A stretch of 27,956 nucleotides of DNA from a virus: positions 1 to 27,956 of the IMG/VR virus record IMGVR_UViG_3300046660_000797. One strand, given 5' to 3'. The translations under genes and the position numbers were made by a program. Position 1 is the stretch's first letter. Every line of letters starts with the position of its first letter. Under the pieces are notes generated by a model that was not told the origin of the DNA, searched no databases, and saw only the letters and a list, made by a program, of their open reading frames with translations. This document shows positions 658 to 26,403 of the stretch, piece after piece.

Positions 658-3600
658 CAGTTGCCTCCCTCATTGGTCACCAGCAGCGGACCGCCGCCGG
701 CAGAGATCGAGTCGATCAAGTCCGCCGTCTTCTGCGAGCTTTGTGCAGTACGCTCGCCAGCGCGGCGCAGGCCAGCCAGCTCGGTACGCAGGGCGCGAAC
801 TTCCTCCACCAGCACTTCGCTATTCGCTTCAGGGCTGGACAGGCGCCGCATCAGTTCACGGTTGTCGGCGCGCGGAATGATCCGCTCGCCTTCGTGAACG
901 TAGGCCGGCATGTCCTCGGGGATGAAGTTCGTGCCCACTGCAAAGTGGTGCAGGTTTTTGTACTCTTCGCTCTCTTTGAAGCCCGCTGTAATCTCTTCCA
1001 GCGAATGCCCCGTGTTGTAAGCGTTGACCCACCAAGCGAGGCCCTCGGCATCGCTTTGGCGCCCCAGCAGGTTGGAGTACAGAGACTCGATGATCTGAGT
1101 CGGTGAACTCGGGCCGGTAACACCGCCTGCCGCACCGCCTGCACTCGGAGCCGGCGCAGCCTTCAAGCCGGCCAGCGCCGCTGCCACTGCCTGCAGCGCG
1201 TCGGACACGCTCAAGACTCCGGTCTTGACGCCATTGAGCACATCGAGCTGCGACTGCGCATTGGTGACCAGGGCGTCGAGCTTCGTGATCGCTTCCAGTC
1301 GGCGCTTCTCCAGGGCCGCCAGTTGCTCGGCCCCGGACTGCTGAATCGCGGTGATCGCGTCCTCGATTCGGCTCACCGTCAGCTGCGCGTAGTTGATCTC
1401 CTTCCCAGCACTGTCCTTCAGCTGAGAGATCAGGTTCCCGGTGCGGGCCTGGTCACGCGCGTAGTCCACGAACGAGGAGAACAGCTGCTCGGAAGGCTTC
1501 GAGACCGTGGACAGGGCATCATCCAGGCCATCGAATCCGACCAGGCTGCCGCCCTTCGCCGCGAACGCCTGCGCACGCTGCAGCAGCGCTTGTGCCGCAG
1601 AGCGCTGCGCAGCATCGAACTTGGCCGACTGCACCGCGGTCGATTCCAGCGCGCGATCCAGGCTGCTGAACACCGCCTTGATCGCGTTGACGTGATCCTG
1701 CGCCGCCTGAAGTTGCCCACGGGCCGCTTCGACCGCTTCGTCGGTCGCCTTCTTGATCGCATCCGCCTGCGCCTGGTAAGACGCGTTGATGGCTGCCTTC
1801 TCGGCGTCCACCGCCTTCGACAATTCGCCCAGGGCGTTGCTCGCTGCCGCAGCTGCCGCCTCGTGAGCAGCAGCTTCATTCTGTAACGCGGTGATCCGGT
1901 CGAACAGGGCCAGGTTGCTCGCGTCGATCGACGCACGTTCCTGGGCGCGCAGCTGGGCCGACGTCAAAGTCAGCTGATCCAGCTGCGCCTGCAGGTCTTT
2001 GCGCTGGCTGAGAATGTCGGCAGCCGACATCGCCGCCGATTTCGTCTGCTCGATCTCCGGGTAGACTTGGGCGAAGGCGTCGGCCAGACCCAGGAGCTGG
2101 GCGTACTGCTTGGCGCCCGCTTCCGTGGTCACGTCCATGCCCAGCACCAGATCCTTGAACTGCTGACGGGTCGTGATGCTGGACAAGCCCATCGACGCCA
2201 GTTGCTCGGTGACGTATTTCTGCACCGGCGCCAGGCGCTCCGCTTCGCTCAGGAAGTTGTCCGAAATGTTCTTGGTCTGCTCAGCAAGCTTGTCCACACC
2301 ACCAACCAGGGTGATCAGGCGCTCCCTGGCCTCGATGCTGGCCAGCCCCACCGAACCGAACGTGCGGCCGATCGACGCCATGATGGAATCGACGTTCGCG
2401 TAGTCCGATGCGATGCGGGTCAGCGTCTCGAAGTAGCCTTCGCCGACCTTCTGGAACTGCTGCAGGCCGTCCACAGCAAAGCGGGCCATGTCATCGCCCA
2501 CTTTGGAGAACACAGCTTCCAGCGCCTTCTGTACCTCCTCACCCTTCAGGTCCTTGAGCGACACCTTGCCGATCTCAACGACGAACGAGTTCAGGTGCTG
2601 CGTGAACTCGTCGCCGCCGATGCCCAGCAAGCCGCCGGCCTGCTTCACCGTGTCGGCCAGGCCGACGATGATCTTGGTGAACTGGTCGTCCGCCTCACGT
2701 CCAAGGGCCGTCAGCGAGGTGTTGTATTTGTCGCTACTGAACCAACCACCAGATTTTTTAGTGTCAGCGTACTGGCTGGAGTGAATACCACCAGCCAGCA
2801 CCTGCGCCAGCGACGCCCGGTCAGCAGTCAGGCCAGTGTCCAAGGTCGTCACCTTGCCGCCGAAGACGCTGCCCAGCACCTTGCCCAAGATCTTGCCGGT
2901 CAAACCGCCAGTGATCTTGTCCAGCGCTACGCCGAGGCCCCCCCCGGCGATGAAGTTGCCCACCGTCGAGCGACCGAAGTTCTCGGCCGCACCGGCTTTG
3001 TCCGGCGCCACCGCCGTGGCCAGGCCGCTTGTCCGCACCAGCAGGCTGCCCAGCCCAGCGATTGAGTTCTCGATGCTGCGCAGTGAGGCCAGCATGCCGG
3101 CCGTGTGCGACAGCTCGATGCCCGAATTCTGCTCGATCGCTTCCAGCGACTTGGCAATCGAGTCAGACTTTGCCGACGAATCCCCCAGCACCGAACCGGT
3201 ACCCTGGGCTGCTTGGCGGTCCTTCGCGAGATTGGCGCCCCCACCACCGCCCAGGCTGCCGGTAAGCTTGGCGCCCACCGCCACAACGGCTGCGAGGGTC
3301 GCCGCACCGGCCACCAGGTTGAGCGGGAACGGCATCGAGGCAATCGCCTTGACGACCGCAGTCACGCCCCAGGCGCTTGCCTCGGTCGCGGCCAGGCCAG
3401 TCGACGCAGCAGTGGTCGCCGCCTCGCCGCTCAGCTTGGTCGCGTTGAGCGCGGTATTCGCTGCAACCTCGCCCTCCTTGAAGAAGATCTTCCTTGCCAT
3501 GGATTCCAAGGCCATCGCCATTTCCGCAGCGCGGTACGCCTTCTCCACGGCTTCCAGCGTCTTGTAGCCGGTAGAACTCTCCTTGAAGAAGCCCTTCGCC

Positions 3601-21782: not shown

Positions 21783-21811
21783 ACTTTACCCAAAAGATAA
21801 ACTTGACGCAA
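21783..21811 (-). promoter_or_regulatory. Early leftward promoter pR (cro-like operon)
   Basis: On the minus strand TTGCGT (21811-21806) and TAAAGT (21788-21783) are separated by exactly 17 bases, and the spacer holds operator 1. The predicted transcription start is the A of the cro-like ATG at 21776. The other early promoter has the same -10, spacer length and operator placement. Confidence 0.6.
21785..21801. promoter_or_regulatory. Operator OR1 (TTTACC-N5-GATAAA)
   Basis: This is an imperfect 17-bp dyad fitting the consensus TTTAYC-N5-GRTAAA exactly. It overlaps the -10 of pR. Read on the minus strand, the 22-base block around it matches the block at pL with one difference. Confidence 0.75.
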
Positions 21812-21817
21812 GAATTG

Positions 21818-21834
21818 TTTATCTTTTTGGTCAT
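21818..21834. promoter_or_regulatory. Operator OR2 candidate (TTTATC-N5-GGTCAT)
   Basis: The left half-site is perfect and the right half-site is degenerate. It starts 33 bases from OR1 and overlaps OR3 by one base. Confidence 0.5.
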
Positions 21835-21850
21835 TTATCTTTTCGCTAAA
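21834..21850. promoter_or_regulatory. Operator OR3 candidate (TTTATC-N5-GCTAAA)
   Basis: It has one mismatch to TTTAYC-N5-GRTAAA. It lies next to the cI start, where it could control cI transcription as OR3 does in lambda. Confidence 0.6.
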
Positions 21851-21868
21851 AACCCCGATCATCCCTGC

Positions 21869-22612
21869 ATGACACCGATGAAAAGAGAAGACGTTCGGCG
21901 CGAGAACGCGCGCAGACTCGCAGCTGATGCAGGCGGGCTGACGGAATTCGCTCGCAAGACTGGGATGGAAAACTCTCAGGTGAGTCAGATCATTGGGAAA
22001 AACCCGACCAAGAACATTGGTAACATCGTTGCGGCGCGGATCGAGCAGGCTTTTGATTTGGTCGAGGGCACTTTAGATTTGCCTCCGTCATCTGAAGGGC
22101 TTGGTACTCAGAGCGCTGTAGTTGAATCAACAGCGGATACCTCTCCCTTTCCTGGCGCCCGCCCAGTGACCGTCGAGGATGAAGACTCACCGCATCATTA
22201 TCAAATACCGAAAGTGAAACTTACGCTTCAAGCAGGAGTAACGGGCATCCAGACTGAACCCGATCTGCGCGACGGCGGCTCGCTGGGAATTTCGCGTAGC
22301 TGGATCGAGCGCAAGGGATACAACCCCAAAGACTTGATTGCGATACAAGTACGAGGGGAAAGCATGGAGCCGACCTTTTATGAAGACGACACCGTGGTCA
22401 TCAATCTGGCCGACAAAAAGCCTATAGACAATGGGGTGTACGCAATCAATTACGAAGGCGAGGCAGTGGTAAAACGACTGTCGCGCGATGCCGGACAGTG
22501 GTGGCTGATGTCCGACAACCCCGATCAGCGCAAGTATTTCAGACGGGCATGCCAGGGTAATCGCTGCATCATCGTGGGGCGAGTAGTCCGGCGCGAGGGT
22601 GACAACTTCTGA
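21869..22612 (+). CDS. CI-type repressor, S24/LexA-like autocleaving
   Basis: This 247-residue repressor keeps the prophage silent. The N-terminal HTH (about residues 20-60) includes LTEFARKTGMENSQVSQIIG. The C-terminal S24 peptidase domain has the Ala122-Gly123 cleavage site (LQAGVTG), catalytic Ser165 (RGESMEPT) and Lys202 (VVKRL). These are all present, so RecA-stimulated self-cleavage and SOS induction are expected. No clear ribosome-binding site precedes ATG 21869 or the second ATG at 21878 (MKRED), and the choice between them is open. It is transcribed divergently from the cro-like gene and lies between two operator clusters. Confidence 0.92.
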   Translation: MTPMKREDVRRENARRLAADAGGLTEFARKTGMENSQVSQIIGKNPTKNIGNIVAARIEQAFDLVEGTLDLPPSSEGLGTQSAVVESTADTSPFPGARPVTVEDEDSPHHYQIPKVKLTLQAGVTGIQTEPDLRDGGSLGISRSWIERKGYNPKDLIAIQVRGESMEPTFYEDDTVVINLADKKPIDNGVYAINYEGEAVVKRLSRDAGQWWLMSDNPDQRKYFRRACQGNRCIIVGRVVRREGDNF

Positions 22613-22654
22613 AGCCATTCAAGCCGCCTCAAGCGGCCCAAAGCTCACAACCAC

Positions 22655-22671
22655 TTTACCATTTGAGCAAA
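22655..22671. promoter_or_regulatory. Operator OL3 candidate
   Basis: The left half-site TTTACC is perfect and the right half AGCAAA has two mismatches to GRTAAA. It is the weakest of the left-side operators. Confidence 0.35.
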
Positions 22672-22697
22672 ATACAACGATACATCAGATCGCAAAT

Positions 22698-22714
22698 TTA
22701 ACCTTTTTGATAAA
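22698..22714. promoter_or_regulatory. Operator OL2 (TTAACC-N5-GATAAA)
   Basis: It has one mismatch to the 17-bp consensus. It lies exactly 33 bases from OL1, the same spacing as OR1 to OR2. Confidence 0.6.
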
Positions 22715-22720
22715 AACAGC

Positions 22721-22749
22721 TTGCTACTGGTTTATCTTTTAGGTAAAGT
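22721..22749 (+). promoter_or_regulatory. Early rightward promoter pL (accessory operon)
   Basis: TTGCTA (22721-22726) and TAAAGT (22744-22749) are separated by 17 bases with OL1 in the spacer. Transcription should start near A22756, giving a 17-base leader with GAAGG before the ATG at 22773. Confidence 0.65.
22731..22747. promoter_or_regulatory. Operator OL1 (TTTATC-N5-GGTAAA)
   Basis: It matches the consensus TTTAYC-N5-GRTAAA fully and lies between the -35 and -10 of pL. The surrounding 22 bases are nearly identical to the OR1 region read on the other strand. Confidence 0.75.
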
Positions 22750-22772
22750 TTCCCCATCGAAGGTTAACTACG

Positions 22773-23201
22773 ATGGAGAAACAGTTGAACGTCTGGTCCC
22801 TCTCGGCTGCTGGTCCGGCCAAAACATCCCCCGCTGAAATAATAGACAGGCTCATCAAGGAGGCTTTTTCCCCTTGTTTGAGCCGACAGGCTCGCAGTCT
22901 CGAATATGTGACTGGCGTTCGCGCTTTACTACTTCAACAGCTTGTCGGCAAACCCTTGGCGTGCCAATACGCCGAGGGCACCGCAGCGGCTGATGCCTTT
23001 TTTTCAGGAGTAGAGGAAGGCCGGCACCTACACACGAGGCATCTCTCGTCCCTATCCCCCACACCGCCCACAACGGTTGACCCATTTGCAGGCCTCAAGG
23101 GCCATGACTACATCAAGGCGCGCAATCTTGCGCCCCCGGTAACGCGTGTGCAGACGTCTGCACATGATGCTATGCAGACGGCGCAAGAGGTGCGCAAATG
23201 A
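22773..23201 (+). CDS. Conserved phage protein of unknown function, first gene of the pL operon
   Basis: This 142-residue protein has a recognisable central block: SRQARSLEYVTGVRALLLQ, then KPLACQYAEGTAAADAFFSG and VEEGRHL. The pattern (S-x-EY-x-x-GVRA-LL ... C-x-Y-x-x-GTA-x-x-DAFF-x-GVEEG) is common in uncharacterised phage proteins of Burkholderiales. The C-terminal 50 residues look disordered (SPTPPTTVD), and part is encoded by a copy of the 16-bp palindrome. It starts 17 bases after the predicted pL start, with GAAGG upstream, and its stop overlaps the next start as ATGA. Function unknown. Confidence 0.75.
   Translation: MEKQLNVWSLSAAGPAKTSPAEIIDRLIKEAFSPCLSRQARSLEYVTGVRALLLQQLVGKPLACQYAEGTAAADAFFSGVEEGRHLHTRHLSSLSPTPPTTVDPFAGLKGHDYIKARNLAPPVTRVQTSAHDAMQTAQEVRK
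23147..23164. repeat. 18-bp perfect palindrome TGTGCAGACGTCTGCACA (copy in first pL gene)
   Basis: This is identical to the 18-bp palindrome at 9157-9174. Here it encodes V-Q-T-S-A near the C-terminus, the same frame as the copy in the terminase tail. Confidence 0.9.
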
Positions 23202-23704
23202 GCGCCCGCCCCCTCCCGACTGGCTCGCTGAGCGATCACGCAGTTGCCCTTCTAGCCAGCATGGCTAAGCTCCAGCTTGCTGCTACAAACGCGACTGAAC
23301 TGCTAGAGCAAGCCGGTTTCGCCGGCATGCGCGGGGACACTGCTGACGACTTGCGGCAGGCGCTCGCCATTCACGGCCACCTGGTGCATGAGTTCAACGT
23401 CAAAGTGCGCACCAGTTCCGGCGTATTGACCTTCAGCGCGAAGGCTGAAAGCGCCCTAGGCGCCGCACAGGACGCCGCAGCGCACCACGGCGACACGCCG
23501 TGCGGCATCACCGTCACGCCAGCGCAACCCGACCGCCAGTCGCTCGCAGCTGCACATCGCGTGATGCGCATCGCAGGCTCACTGGATGACGCACTGAAGC
23601 ACCCGGCACTCGGCCCAGCCGTGCGCACCTACGCTCGCAAACATCCTGTTCGCACCGCCTCATTCACCGACTTCAAATCCCTCGCGGCCAACGACCGCGA
23701 TTAA
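23198..23704 (+). CDS. Conserved phage protein of unknown function, second gene of the pL operon
   Basis: This 168-residue protein overlaps the first pL gene by four bases. The middle (VLTFSAKAESALGAAQDAAAHH followed by GDTPCGITVTP) resembles uncharacterised prophage proteins with a F-x-A-x-x-S-x-x-A ... PCGI/VTV pattern. A helical segment (SLDDALKHPALGPAVRTYA) follows. It ends TDFKSLAANDRD, closely like the end of the 24048-24278 protein (TDFKRPATNDRD). The function is not recognised. It may act with its neighbours early in infection, since it is under pL. Confidence 0.75.
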   Translation: MSARPLPTGSLSDHAVALLASMAKLQLAATNATELLEQAGFAGMRGDTADDLRQALAIHGHLVHEFNVKVRTSSGVLTFSAKAESALGAAQDAAAHHGDTPCGITVTPAQPDRQSLAAAHRVMRIAGSLDDALKHPALGPAVRTYARKHPVRTASFTDFKSLAANDRD

Positions 23705-23767
23705 ACGAAAGTCCAGACGTGTCTAAACCTGTCATCACCAGGGCAAATGCCCAATGGCGCGGTGCTT

Positions 23768-24049
23768 TTACTTGTCCTGCTTGTAGCTCTCATATCCGCA
23801 ACTCTTGCAGCTGTAGTAGTGCCGCTGCACGCCCATGCGGCCGAACATCGGGTCATCTTCGGACCTATCCAAACTGTAAGCGAGCCCATGGCATTTCGGG
23901 CACTCATCTGCGCCTGGAGTCCGGCGCCCGGACGCTTCCAACATCTCAACCCGACGCCGCAATGCCTCAATTTCTGCCGGCATGGCATTCAGCTTTTTCC
24001 AAACCGGTATTTGTTCTAACAGCTTAACTAAATCGGAGATCGAAAACAT
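23768..24049 (-). CDS. Zinc-ribbon protein with coiled-coil, encoded against the pL operon
   Basis: This 93-residue protein starts MFSISDLVKLLEQIPVW, has a heptad-like helix (about residues 22-40, PAEIEALRRRVEMLEA), and ends in a zinc ribbon with Cys-Pro-x-Cys and Cys-Lys-Ser-Cys pairs. GGGAAG lies about eight bases before the ATG, which overlaps the ATG of the plus-strand gene at 24048 by two bases. The stop is TAA. Its compact domain order and ribosome-binding site argue it is real even though it runs against the operon; a competing plus-strand frame at 23719-24027 has no plausible domain. It may be a moron expressed from its own promoter. Function unknown. Confidence 0.75.
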   Translation of the reverse strand: MFSISDLVKLLEQIPVWKKLNAMPAEIEALRRRVEMLEASGRRTPGADECPKCHGLAYSLDRSEDDPMFGRMGVQRHYYSCKSCGYESYKQDK

Positions 24050-24278
24050 GGAATCACTTCCCAAAATTGGACAGGTAGTGAGTATGCCCGATGGCGTTGC
24101 CGTCGCGCGAATTCATATGCAAAACATCGTGGTGAACCACGGCGAAAACGGCAGCAAATTTATCAACGTACAGGACGGCGACAACCTGGTTGTTTTCCTG
24201 CTCGACCGCAGCCAGTGCGATCACCTCGCTGATCTGCTGACCGACTTCAAACGTCCTGCAACCAACGATCGCGACTAA
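24048..24278 (+). CDS. Small conserved phage protein of unknown function
   Basis: This 76-residue protein begins MESLPKIGQVVSMPDG, with beta-strand-like segments (IHMQNIVVNH, NLVVFLLDRS) and a helical end (QCDHLADLLTDFK). CGGAGA lies nine bases upstream of the ATG. The C-terminus TDFKRPATNDRD matches the end of the 23198-23704 protein. The start codon overlaps the minus-strand zinc-ribbon gene's start codon by two bases, so each gene's ribosome-binding site is inside the other's coding region. It precedes the ParB-like gene by 16 bases. Confidence 0.7.
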   Translation: MESLPKIGQVVSMPDGVAVARIHMQNIVVNHGENGSKFINVQDGDNLVVFLLDRSQCDHLADLLTDFKRPATNDRD

Positions 24279-24294
24279 CTGAAAGGCCTGCGCC

Positions 24295-26403
24295 ATGAGC
24301 AAACTTGTTGTCCTTCCCCCGCCGGTTGTTCCCGTCCCCGCTGACCAGGTGATCGTTGTCGATGAACTTGTCACGGAGGGCTACCGCGACATTCCGCTGC
24401 ACCTGGTCCGTATTTCGTACACGAACCGCACCCGCTTCAACGCGGAGGCGCTGCAGCAGTTGGCGGATAACATCGCCGAGGTAGGCATCCTCCAGCCGAT
24501 CCTGATGCGTCCGGTCACACCCACAGCCGAAGCACCCCAGATCCTGGAAGTTGTCGCAGGCGAACGCCGCTTCCGCGCGGCCGTGATGGCCGGTCTGTTT
24601 AAGGCACCGTCCAGCATCAAGCATCTGTCCGACAAACAAGCGGCCGAAATCCAGCTGCTAGAGAACATCCAGCGCGAGAACCCGCACCCACTGGAGGAGG
24701 CCATCGGCTTTGAGCAGCTTATGCTCAAACACGGCTACAACGCCGACCAGCTGGCCGCCAAGGTCAAACAGAGCCGGTCCTACGTGTATGCGCGCCTGAA
24801 ACTGTGCGCACTGTCGCTGCGCGCCCGCGAACTGTTCCTGGACGACATTCAGCGCTTCTCCGCATCGACCGCACTGCTGATCGCACGCATCCCGACTCCC
24901 GGACTGCAGGACAAGGCGCTGAGCGAGATCATGGCCCCGCAATACAATGGCGAGCCAATGTCCGTTCGCTTGGCCGCCCAGCACATCGCCAATCGCTACA
25001 CGCTGAATCTGGAAGCAGCACCATTCGATACCAAGGATGCAAAGCTGCTGGCCGGTGCCGACAATTGCCTGAAGTGCCCCAAGCGCACCGGCAACCAGCC
25101 GGAGATTTACGCCGACGCGAAAAGTGCAGACGTCTGCACCGATCCCGATTGCTTCGCGGAGAAGAAGGCCGCGCACTATCAGCGCATCATCGTTATCGCC
25201 AACAAAAAGCGCATCCCGGTATTGGAAGGCGAGGAAGCCGACGACGCCACGCCGAACAACTGGAGCCGCGACGAAGAATTCGTAACCGAAGATCACCACC
25301 TAAGCGCCTTTGACCGCGTGGCACCAACAACCGGGATGTCAGGCCCGATCAAGAAGCACCTCGCGAGCGAACTCCTGCCAGCGCCTGTCAAATACCTCAA
25401 GAACGAGGACGGCAGCGTCGATGCGCTCTATCGCCGTGAGGATATCCAGGCTGCACTGGAGAAAGCCGGCGCCTGCGAGACGGAACAAGCACGTACCACG
25501 CGCCTGGGCGACGAAGCCGCCGACCCATCCAAGGCCGCAAAGCAGACCAAGCAGCAGGAGGCGGCGGCCAAACAGGCCCAAGAACGCGAGGAGCGTCAGC
25601 GCCGTTGCGAGGCTATTACGCAAGAGCGAGTTATCCGTTATCGCAAGCTGCGGGCTCGCGCCGCCGCCGGTCTTACCCTGCCAATGCTGCGCGAACTGAC
25701 CAAGGCACTGGTGCTGGATAGCCATGACCATAGTCTGCCCGACGACCTGATCGGTGATCTGTACCCATTCCAGGAACGCAGCGATGCCGCATTGTGCGCC
25801 CACATTGACCTGGCTGATATGGCGACCGTCCAGTTGCTGCTCATGGACCTGATCGTCGGCGAGAACCTCAGCATGTCCACCTGGGACCTCGATGACGATC
25901 CAAGCCCGACGGCGCTGGCAATGCTGGCAATGGCTAAGACAGAAGGCATCGATGTCACGCCTGCCGATCTAGCCATCGCTAACATCGATATTGAGACCCT
26001 GCAGTACCCGGACGACGTCCGCGAGACCATCTCCGCCAATATCGAACACCTGGCGGCCGTCTGCGCTCACATCATCGACAAGGCCCCATACCATCTGGGT
26101 AACGTTGAAGCTGCCGCTAACAGCCTGGGCTACGCCTATGGTAGTGGCGGCTGGTACAAACAGGCTGCCCAGGTCGAAGAGACTGCAGCGACAGCCGATG
26201 ATGCCGCTGCAACGCACATGGATCAGTCCGAACCGATGCCGGCTCCAACCCGCACGAAGCTCAGCCTGAAGAAAAAGAACGATGCGCAGCCTGATGCAGC
26301 GGCAGGCCCCGTCGTCCGAGTGAAGAAGGACCGCGCAGCCCAAGCGGCCGCCGCCCTGACGCCAGCGGCGGCCTGGCCGTTCCCAACCCAACACCGGTCT
26401 TGA
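24295..26403 (+). CDS. ParB/RepB/Spo0J-family protein, no ParA partner
   Basis: This 702-residue protein has the ParB N-terminal domain with GERRFRA (89-95, the CTP-binding box), ENIQREN (123-129) and an HTH (about 150-170, DQLAAKVKQSRSYVYARLKL). A Cys cluster (Cys258-x2-Cys261, then Cys281 and Cys286) could bind zinc. Long acidic and Lys/Ala-rich regions follow, with a charged coiled segment near 425-460 and a basic C-terminus (KLSLKKK). No ParA gene is in the window, so it may be a regulator or DNA-organising protein rather than a partition factor. AAAGG precedes the ATG by about eight bases. A copy of the 16-bp palindrome encodes residues 277-282 in the Cys cluster. Confidence 0.85.
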   Translation: MSKLVVLPPPVVPVPADQVIVVDELVTEGYRDIPLHLVRISYTNRTRFNAEALQQLADNIAEVGILQPILMRPVTPTAEAPQILEVVAGERRFRAAVMAGLFKAPSSIKHLSDKQAAEIQLLENIQRENPHPLEEAIGFEQLMLKHGYNADQLAAKVKQSRSYVYARLKLCALSLRARELFLDDIQRFSASTALLIARIPTPGLQDKALSEIMAPQYNGEPMSVRLAAQHIANRYTLNLEAAPFDTKDAKLLAGADNCLKCPKRTGNQPEIYADAKSADVCTDPDCFAEKKAAHYQRIIVIANKKRIPVLEGEEADDATPNNWSRDEEFVTEDHHLSAFDRVAPTTGMSGPIKKHLASELLPAPVKYLKNEDGSVDALYRREDIQAALEKAGACETEQARTTRLGDEAADPSKAAKQTKQQEAAAKQAQEREERQRRCEAITQERVIRYRKLRARAAAGLTLPMLRELTKALVLDSHDHSLPDDLIGDLYPFQERSDAALCAHIDLADMATVQLLLMDLIVGENLSMSTWDLDDDPSPTALAMLAMAKTEGIDVTPADLAIANIDIETLQYPDDVRETISANIEHLAAVCAHIIDKAPYHLGNVEAAANSLGYAYGSGGWYKQAAQVEETAATADDAAATHMDQSEPMPAPTRTKLSLKKKNDAQPDAAAGPVVRVKKDRAAQAAAALTPAAAWPFPTQHRS
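25124..25139. repeat. 16-bp palindrome GTGCAGACGTCTGCAC (copy in parB-like gene)
   Basis: This is an exact copy of the repeated palindrome. It is read in a different frame from the other coding copies (S-A-D-V-C-T). Confidence 0.9.

Follow-up and report, generated by a model that had tools for sequence, protein, structure and literature searches.

The stretch of viral DNA analysed here (the window; 27,956 nucleotides, positions 1 to 27,956 of IMG/VR virus record IMGVR_UViG_3300046660_000797) has its closest ParB relatives, among genomes, in Massilia and Duganella. Between ORF168 and the gene for a ParB-like protein, both on the plus strand, lie two short genes arranged head-to-head: a zinc-ribbon gene (ZR) on the minus strand and a small partner gene on the plus strand. 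The features of the locus are as follows.

23198–23704, plus strand: ORF168, the upstream neighbour, given for context
23666–23714: left copy of a 49-bp direct repeat, at the 3′ end of ORF168 (encoded tail DFKSLAANDRD)
23705–24294: inserted cassette between ORF168 and ParB, missing from close relatives
23768–24049, minus strand: ZR gene, a 93 aa ORF with homologues 41–54% identical
24035–24038, plus strand: Shine-Dalgarno GGAG of the small gene, within ZR codons 4–5 (duplex −6.6 kcal/mol)
24047–24050, both strands: CATG with the start codons of both genes, which overlap by 2 bases (24048–24049)
24048–24278, plus strand: small partner gene, a 76 aa ORF and the best match to the profile of gammaproteobacterial small proteins
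24057–24062, minus strand: Shine-Dalgarno-like GGGAAG of ZR, within small-gene codons 4–5 (duplex −4.9 kcal/mol, moderate)
24240–24288: right copy of the 49-bp direct repeat, at the 3′ end of the small gene (encoded tail DFKRPATNDRD)
24295–26403, plus strand: ParB-like protein of 702 aa, the downstream neighbour (PF02195, E=7e-20)

As the initial annotation proposed, the CATG at 24047–24050 supplies the start codons of both genes, with the plus-strand ATG at 24048–24050 and the minus-strand ATG at 24049–24047; the coordinates agree and homologues back both starts. The two opposite-strand coding sequences overlap by 2 bp at their 5′ ends, the arrangement of a divergent overlapping gene pair, which is rare among annotated E. 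coli genes (two of 663 overlapping adjacent pairs; PMC4161906). A different start site in homologues of the zinc-ribbon gene had been named as evidence against the pair; instead, ZR relatives start at an aligned methionine (MGILSEL or MISVSDI, compared with MFSISDL in the window). For the same reason a minus-strand TTG at 24064 is an unlikely start for ZR, and a plus-strand ATG at 23982 is an unlikely one for the small gene, whose relatives likewise open at an aligned methionine. The two-way CATG is unremarkable by itself in this GC-rich window, where, of 104 CATG sites, 16 start an ORF of 60 codons or more on each strand. Because a pattern this common is weak evidence alone, the case for the pair is built on its conservation in homologous loci.

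Searches with the window proteins returned no relatives of either protein in phages or viral contigs, and none of ZR in plasmids or genome contigs. In 392 genomes of the Massilia eburnea family they turned up just two matches, both weak and both in the coiled-coil part of ZR. A phrog_8828 search of 294 genomes gave matches mostly at profile positions past the stretch that matches ZR, and phrog_1467 matches in related phages were rejected as ZR candidates, as they sit in long ORFs of ~700 aa that are probably terminase. Homologues were recovered with a DNA motif for the zinc ribbon (DPxFG..G.....YxCxxCG), run on IMG/VR viral contigs and later on E. coli genomes. In the viral contigs the motif led to two loci, one with a 94 aa ZR (L078) and one in which ZR is broken by a stop (L077), each with a divergent ORF of 65–67 aa opposite. 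Intact pairs were found in E. coli NZ_CP069682, NZ_CP034589, and NZ_LR134247, where no gene is annotated at the site; they lie between a holin and either DUF1133 or antitermination Q. Four further E. coli genomes have an L077-type copy; two of these copies were read, and both are degraded. An alignment search added L084–L097, and a search with the small family uncovered L112 and L113–L115, which carry the small gene without ZR. Across the gammaproteobacterial prophage pairs, a ZR of 91–94 aa faces a protein of 65–67 aa. The zinc-ribbon motif had no match in the 392 genomes of the Massilia eburnea family and a ZR profile had none in 398 genomes of the phylum, and given these empty scans the pair looks rare.

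The ZR of the window is 48–54% identical to the gammaproteobacterial types. Conservation of the CATG in homologous loci, the check suggested at the outset, bore out the overlap: it recurs with its 2-base geometry in four gammaproteobacterial lineages, and both ATGs lie within it in L077, L078/L084, L079–L083, and L085–L092, including the distinct L088. This geometry is retained while synonymous sites are mostly saturated (pairwise pS 0.73–0.97 and pN 0.21–0.44 for ZR). ZR is under constraint, with conserved Cys, Trp, and Pro positions and a pN/pS of 0.23–0.55 overall (0.34–0.49 for the window against homologues), and the small gene evolves faster (pN/pS 0.51–0.81). A profile of the gammaproteobacterial small proteins ranks the plus gene of the window first of 4,646 ORFs (E=6e-6), and the partner gene of L095 second (E=0.002). 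Judged by this conservation, both genes are real and form a conserved head-to-head pair in distant prophages.

Departures from the arrangement were also recovered. In the metagenomic locus L095, whose ZR is 41% identical, the pair overlaps by 20 bp in an unchanged phase, and the small-gene start has a strong Shine-Dalgarno. The frame opposite the small gene in L112 and L113–L115 reads MGILPS or MGIFSL and then stops, corresponding to ZR codons 1–6 only, and these retained codons are the leader and Shine-Dalgarno of the small gene (AAGGAG in L113–L115); the small gene itself persists after ZR loss (positions 3001–3198 in L112 and in L113–L115). L096/L097 carry a distant ZR-like gene with no partner detected. 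Intact ZR of the close family was seen only head-to-head with the small partner. On the evidence of L095, L112, L113–L115, and L096, neither the pairing nor the exact 2-base geometry is obligatory. In L094 (3990–4005) one T-to-G change converts CATG to CAGG, and both ATG starts are gone together. An in-frame TGA interrupts ZR at the conserved Trp17 position in L077 (9330–9610), L082, and L083; of these three, L077 still has an intact small gene, whereas those of L082 and L083 are broken.

Ribosome-binding sites were scored by their duplex energy with the 3′ end of 16S rRNA and compared with random 20-mers from the window. The CGGAG of the small gene reaches −6.6 kcal/mol, beyond the 5th percentile of the random 20-mers (−6.4), and the GGGAAG of ZR reaches −4.9 kcal/mol, compared with a random median of −2.6. 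The proposal of a good site for each gene therefore stands for the small gene, but the ZR site is only moderate. Each site does lie within the coding sequence of the other gene as proposed, the GGAG in ZR codons 4–5 and the GGGAAG in small-gene codons 4–5. In the gammaproteobacterial homologues the Shine-Dalgarno of ZR is GAGGT (−6.3 to −7.2 kcal/mol), and duplex energies across homologues range from −6.3 to −8.3 for ZR and from −3.1 to −8.5 for the small gene. Codon 4 is CTC (Leu) in ZR of all four gammaproteobacterial lineages and in the small gene of all six, and CTC is rare in those loci, at 7–14% of leucine codons. We attribute its retention at codon 4 of both genes to the opposite strand, on which CTC is the GAG of the partner's Shine-Dalgarno; each ribosome-binding site is therefore encoded in the codons of the other gene. 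The lineages are non-independent samples and no P-value is attached to the CTC or ribosome-binding-site pattern. The initial annotation further held that the transcripts must be complementary at their 5′ ends. This follows if both mRNAs carry their Shine-Dalgarno, in which case they overlap by at least ~28 nt (24035–24062), but not if either is leaderless. The mutual antisense control that it thought possible is plausible.

ZR consists of N-terminal helices or coiled coil and a C-terminal four-cysteine zinc ribbon (CPKC...CKSC). Its structure model (pLDDT 78) has one short and one long helix and a zinc ribbon of three strands. The protein probably binds nucleic acid. The model of the small protein (pLDDT 72) has five strands and one helix, and Foldseek gave no significant structural match for this protein; its last ~11 codons in the window derive from an ORF168-like tail, and homologous small proteins stop before this tail. 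Neither protein reaches a Pfam or NCBIfam family cut-off, and the cassette proteins have no PADLOC family match of note. The ribbon fold of ZR resembles that of NrdR (Foldseek probability 1.00 over 45–47 aligned columns at ~17% identity, with an E-value of 0.016 that is not significant). Unlike NrdR, in which the zinc ribbon is followed by an ATP-cone, ZR aligns by the ribbon only, has no room for an ATP-cone, and has a coiled coil instead, and with a model of helices plus ribbon it was not assigned to NrdR. ZR also matches positions 1–68 of PHROG 8828, which is labelled HNH endonuclease (E=4e-7 for the window and 8e-17 for the E. coli type). Of the 205 positions of this profile, the remaining two thirds have no counterpart in the 93 aa protein, which stops after its ribbon; the label is therefore not transferable, and ZR was rejected as an HNH endonuclease.

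In L002–L004 and L007 ParB directly follows ORF168, and 23705–24294 is therefore an insert. Relative to these loci the pair has the placement of a moron, an extra gene between phage genes that is absent from close relatives. The cassette is bracketed by the two 49-bp repeat copies, which are 76% identical. The DFKxxAANDRD tail and its stop form a boundary that takes different inserts, ZR and the small gene in the window and another gene in L006 (3380–4000), and a short remnant ending in HDRD lies at the same boundary in L005 (3800–3960). The plus strand of the window encodes a CI-like repressor (21803–22612), ORF142, ORF168, the small gene, ParB, and an excisionase-like gene, while the minus strand encodes Cro/CII-like genes and structural genes. 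As the repressor shares its strand with ORF142, ORF168, the small gene, and ParB, the lysogen may express this operon. An Rfam scan of 22600–24700 gave no match.

In the contexts examined, the small gene reads in the direction of the phage genes around it, and ZR reads against them. These contexts amount to about four independent ones, for which the agreement has a chance of about 1 in 8.

Window: ParB region
L095: early genes
L078, L079–L081, L085, and L088: between antiterminator-type genes and holin
L077: next to a terminase small-subunit-like gene

We infer from this layout that ZR and the small gene make up a mobile prophage accessory (moron) cassette whose two genes exclude each other in the manner of an excludon, a reading to which we give about an even chance of being correct. 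A promoter within the small gene would drive ZR as long as the operon is off. Transcription of the operon would produce an RNA antisense to the whole of ZR that is also the mRNA of the small gene, and ZR and the small product would thereby tend to exclude each other, like a miniature excludon. Promoter scans of the cassette gave no promoter-like site above expectation. The strand context of the window also argues against exclusion, as its operon, downstream of the CI-like repressor on the same strand, could itself be lysogenic. Just past the 3′ end of ZR, terminator-like hairpins, scored on the small-gene strand, were observed in L079 (4372–4400) and L088 (4327–4349); the one in L079 is also followed by a T run on the ZR strand. 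A more specific form of the idea places control in the start site itself, where complementary initiation regions would let the direction of transcription pick either a lysogen protein or its lytic-phase counterpart, giving a self-contained two-protein switch; we consider this rather unlikely.

The serious rival to antisense control is that Shine-Dalgarno packing alone freezes the geometry: the genes would be compactly packed without regulation, and any indel in the shared start region would harm the start codon or the Shine-Dalgarno of one of the two. This reciprocal constraint accounts for CTC at codon 4 and for the retained ZR stub with no need for regulation, and L095 demonstrates that the overlap length can change. 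However, transcripts led by their Shine-Dalgarno sequences would still overlap by ~28 nt, so that some interference is expected, and independent genes should sometimes separate or re-pair, whereas intact close-family ZR keeps to this one partner. We regard packing without regulation as possible, while leaning against it.

It is improbable, in our estimate, that the cassette encodes an effector and its antidote, with ZR an exclusion or toxic protein expressed in the lysogen and the small protein neutralising it when the operon is on. The small gene is kept where ZR is lost or interrupted (L112, L113–L115, and L077), and intact close-family ZR was never seen without it, an asymmetry expected of a toxin with its antidote; the faster evolution of the small gene also fits. 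Ordinary decay explains the loss of ZR as well, however, the distant ZR-like gene of L096 is without a partner, and neither a PADLOC match of note nor a known toxin fold was obtained. A strict pairing of the small protein as toxin with ZR as antitoxin is disfavoured, since the small gene persists without ZR. The likelihood that either ORF is merely a spurious open frame is extremely slight. Many CATG sites in the GC-rich window open two ORFs by chance, and phage, plasmid, and genome collections held no close ZR relative, but the homologues, the ZR pN/pS of 0.23–0.55 with its conserved Cys, Trp, and Pro positions, and the co-occurrence of both families in several lineages led us to rule it out.

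The pair is rare and, as far as literature searches show, undescribed. Divergent coding overlap is the rarest kind in bacteria, and here it is kept across proteobacterial prophages and appears as a unit in different phage contexts. The cassette offers a 0.5-kb system in which to test if two genes become mutually exclusive when their initiation regions overlap, and adds two small protein families missed by annotation pipelines, with intact pairs unannotated in three complete E. coli genomes.

In the excludon of Listeria monocytogenes, genes point away from each other and the RNA of one is antisense to the other; on/off exclusivity has been proposed for it (PMC4179725). ZR and the small gene are likewise divergently oriented neighbours, with a geometry, known here from sequence alone, that is compatible with a long antisense mRNA; unlike in the excludon, their coding sequences overlap at the starts, their ribosome-binding sites lie in the partner, and they travel in a mobile 0.5-kb prophage cassette. 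With the rare divergent overlapping pairs of E. coli (PMC4161906) they share coding sequences that overlap at the 5′ ends, and they differ in being kept between distant prophages, in reciprocal Shine-Dalgarno coding, and in having no annotation in RefSeq E. coli. Lysogens often express accessory genes that lie antisense to lytic genes, and STMMW_20121 of ST64B is a prophage moron with its own promoter and lysogenic expression (PMC7067206). By layout alone ZR can be likened to STMMW_20121, as an extra gene opposite phage genes whose presence varies among related phages, but unlike that moron it has a head-to-head partner.
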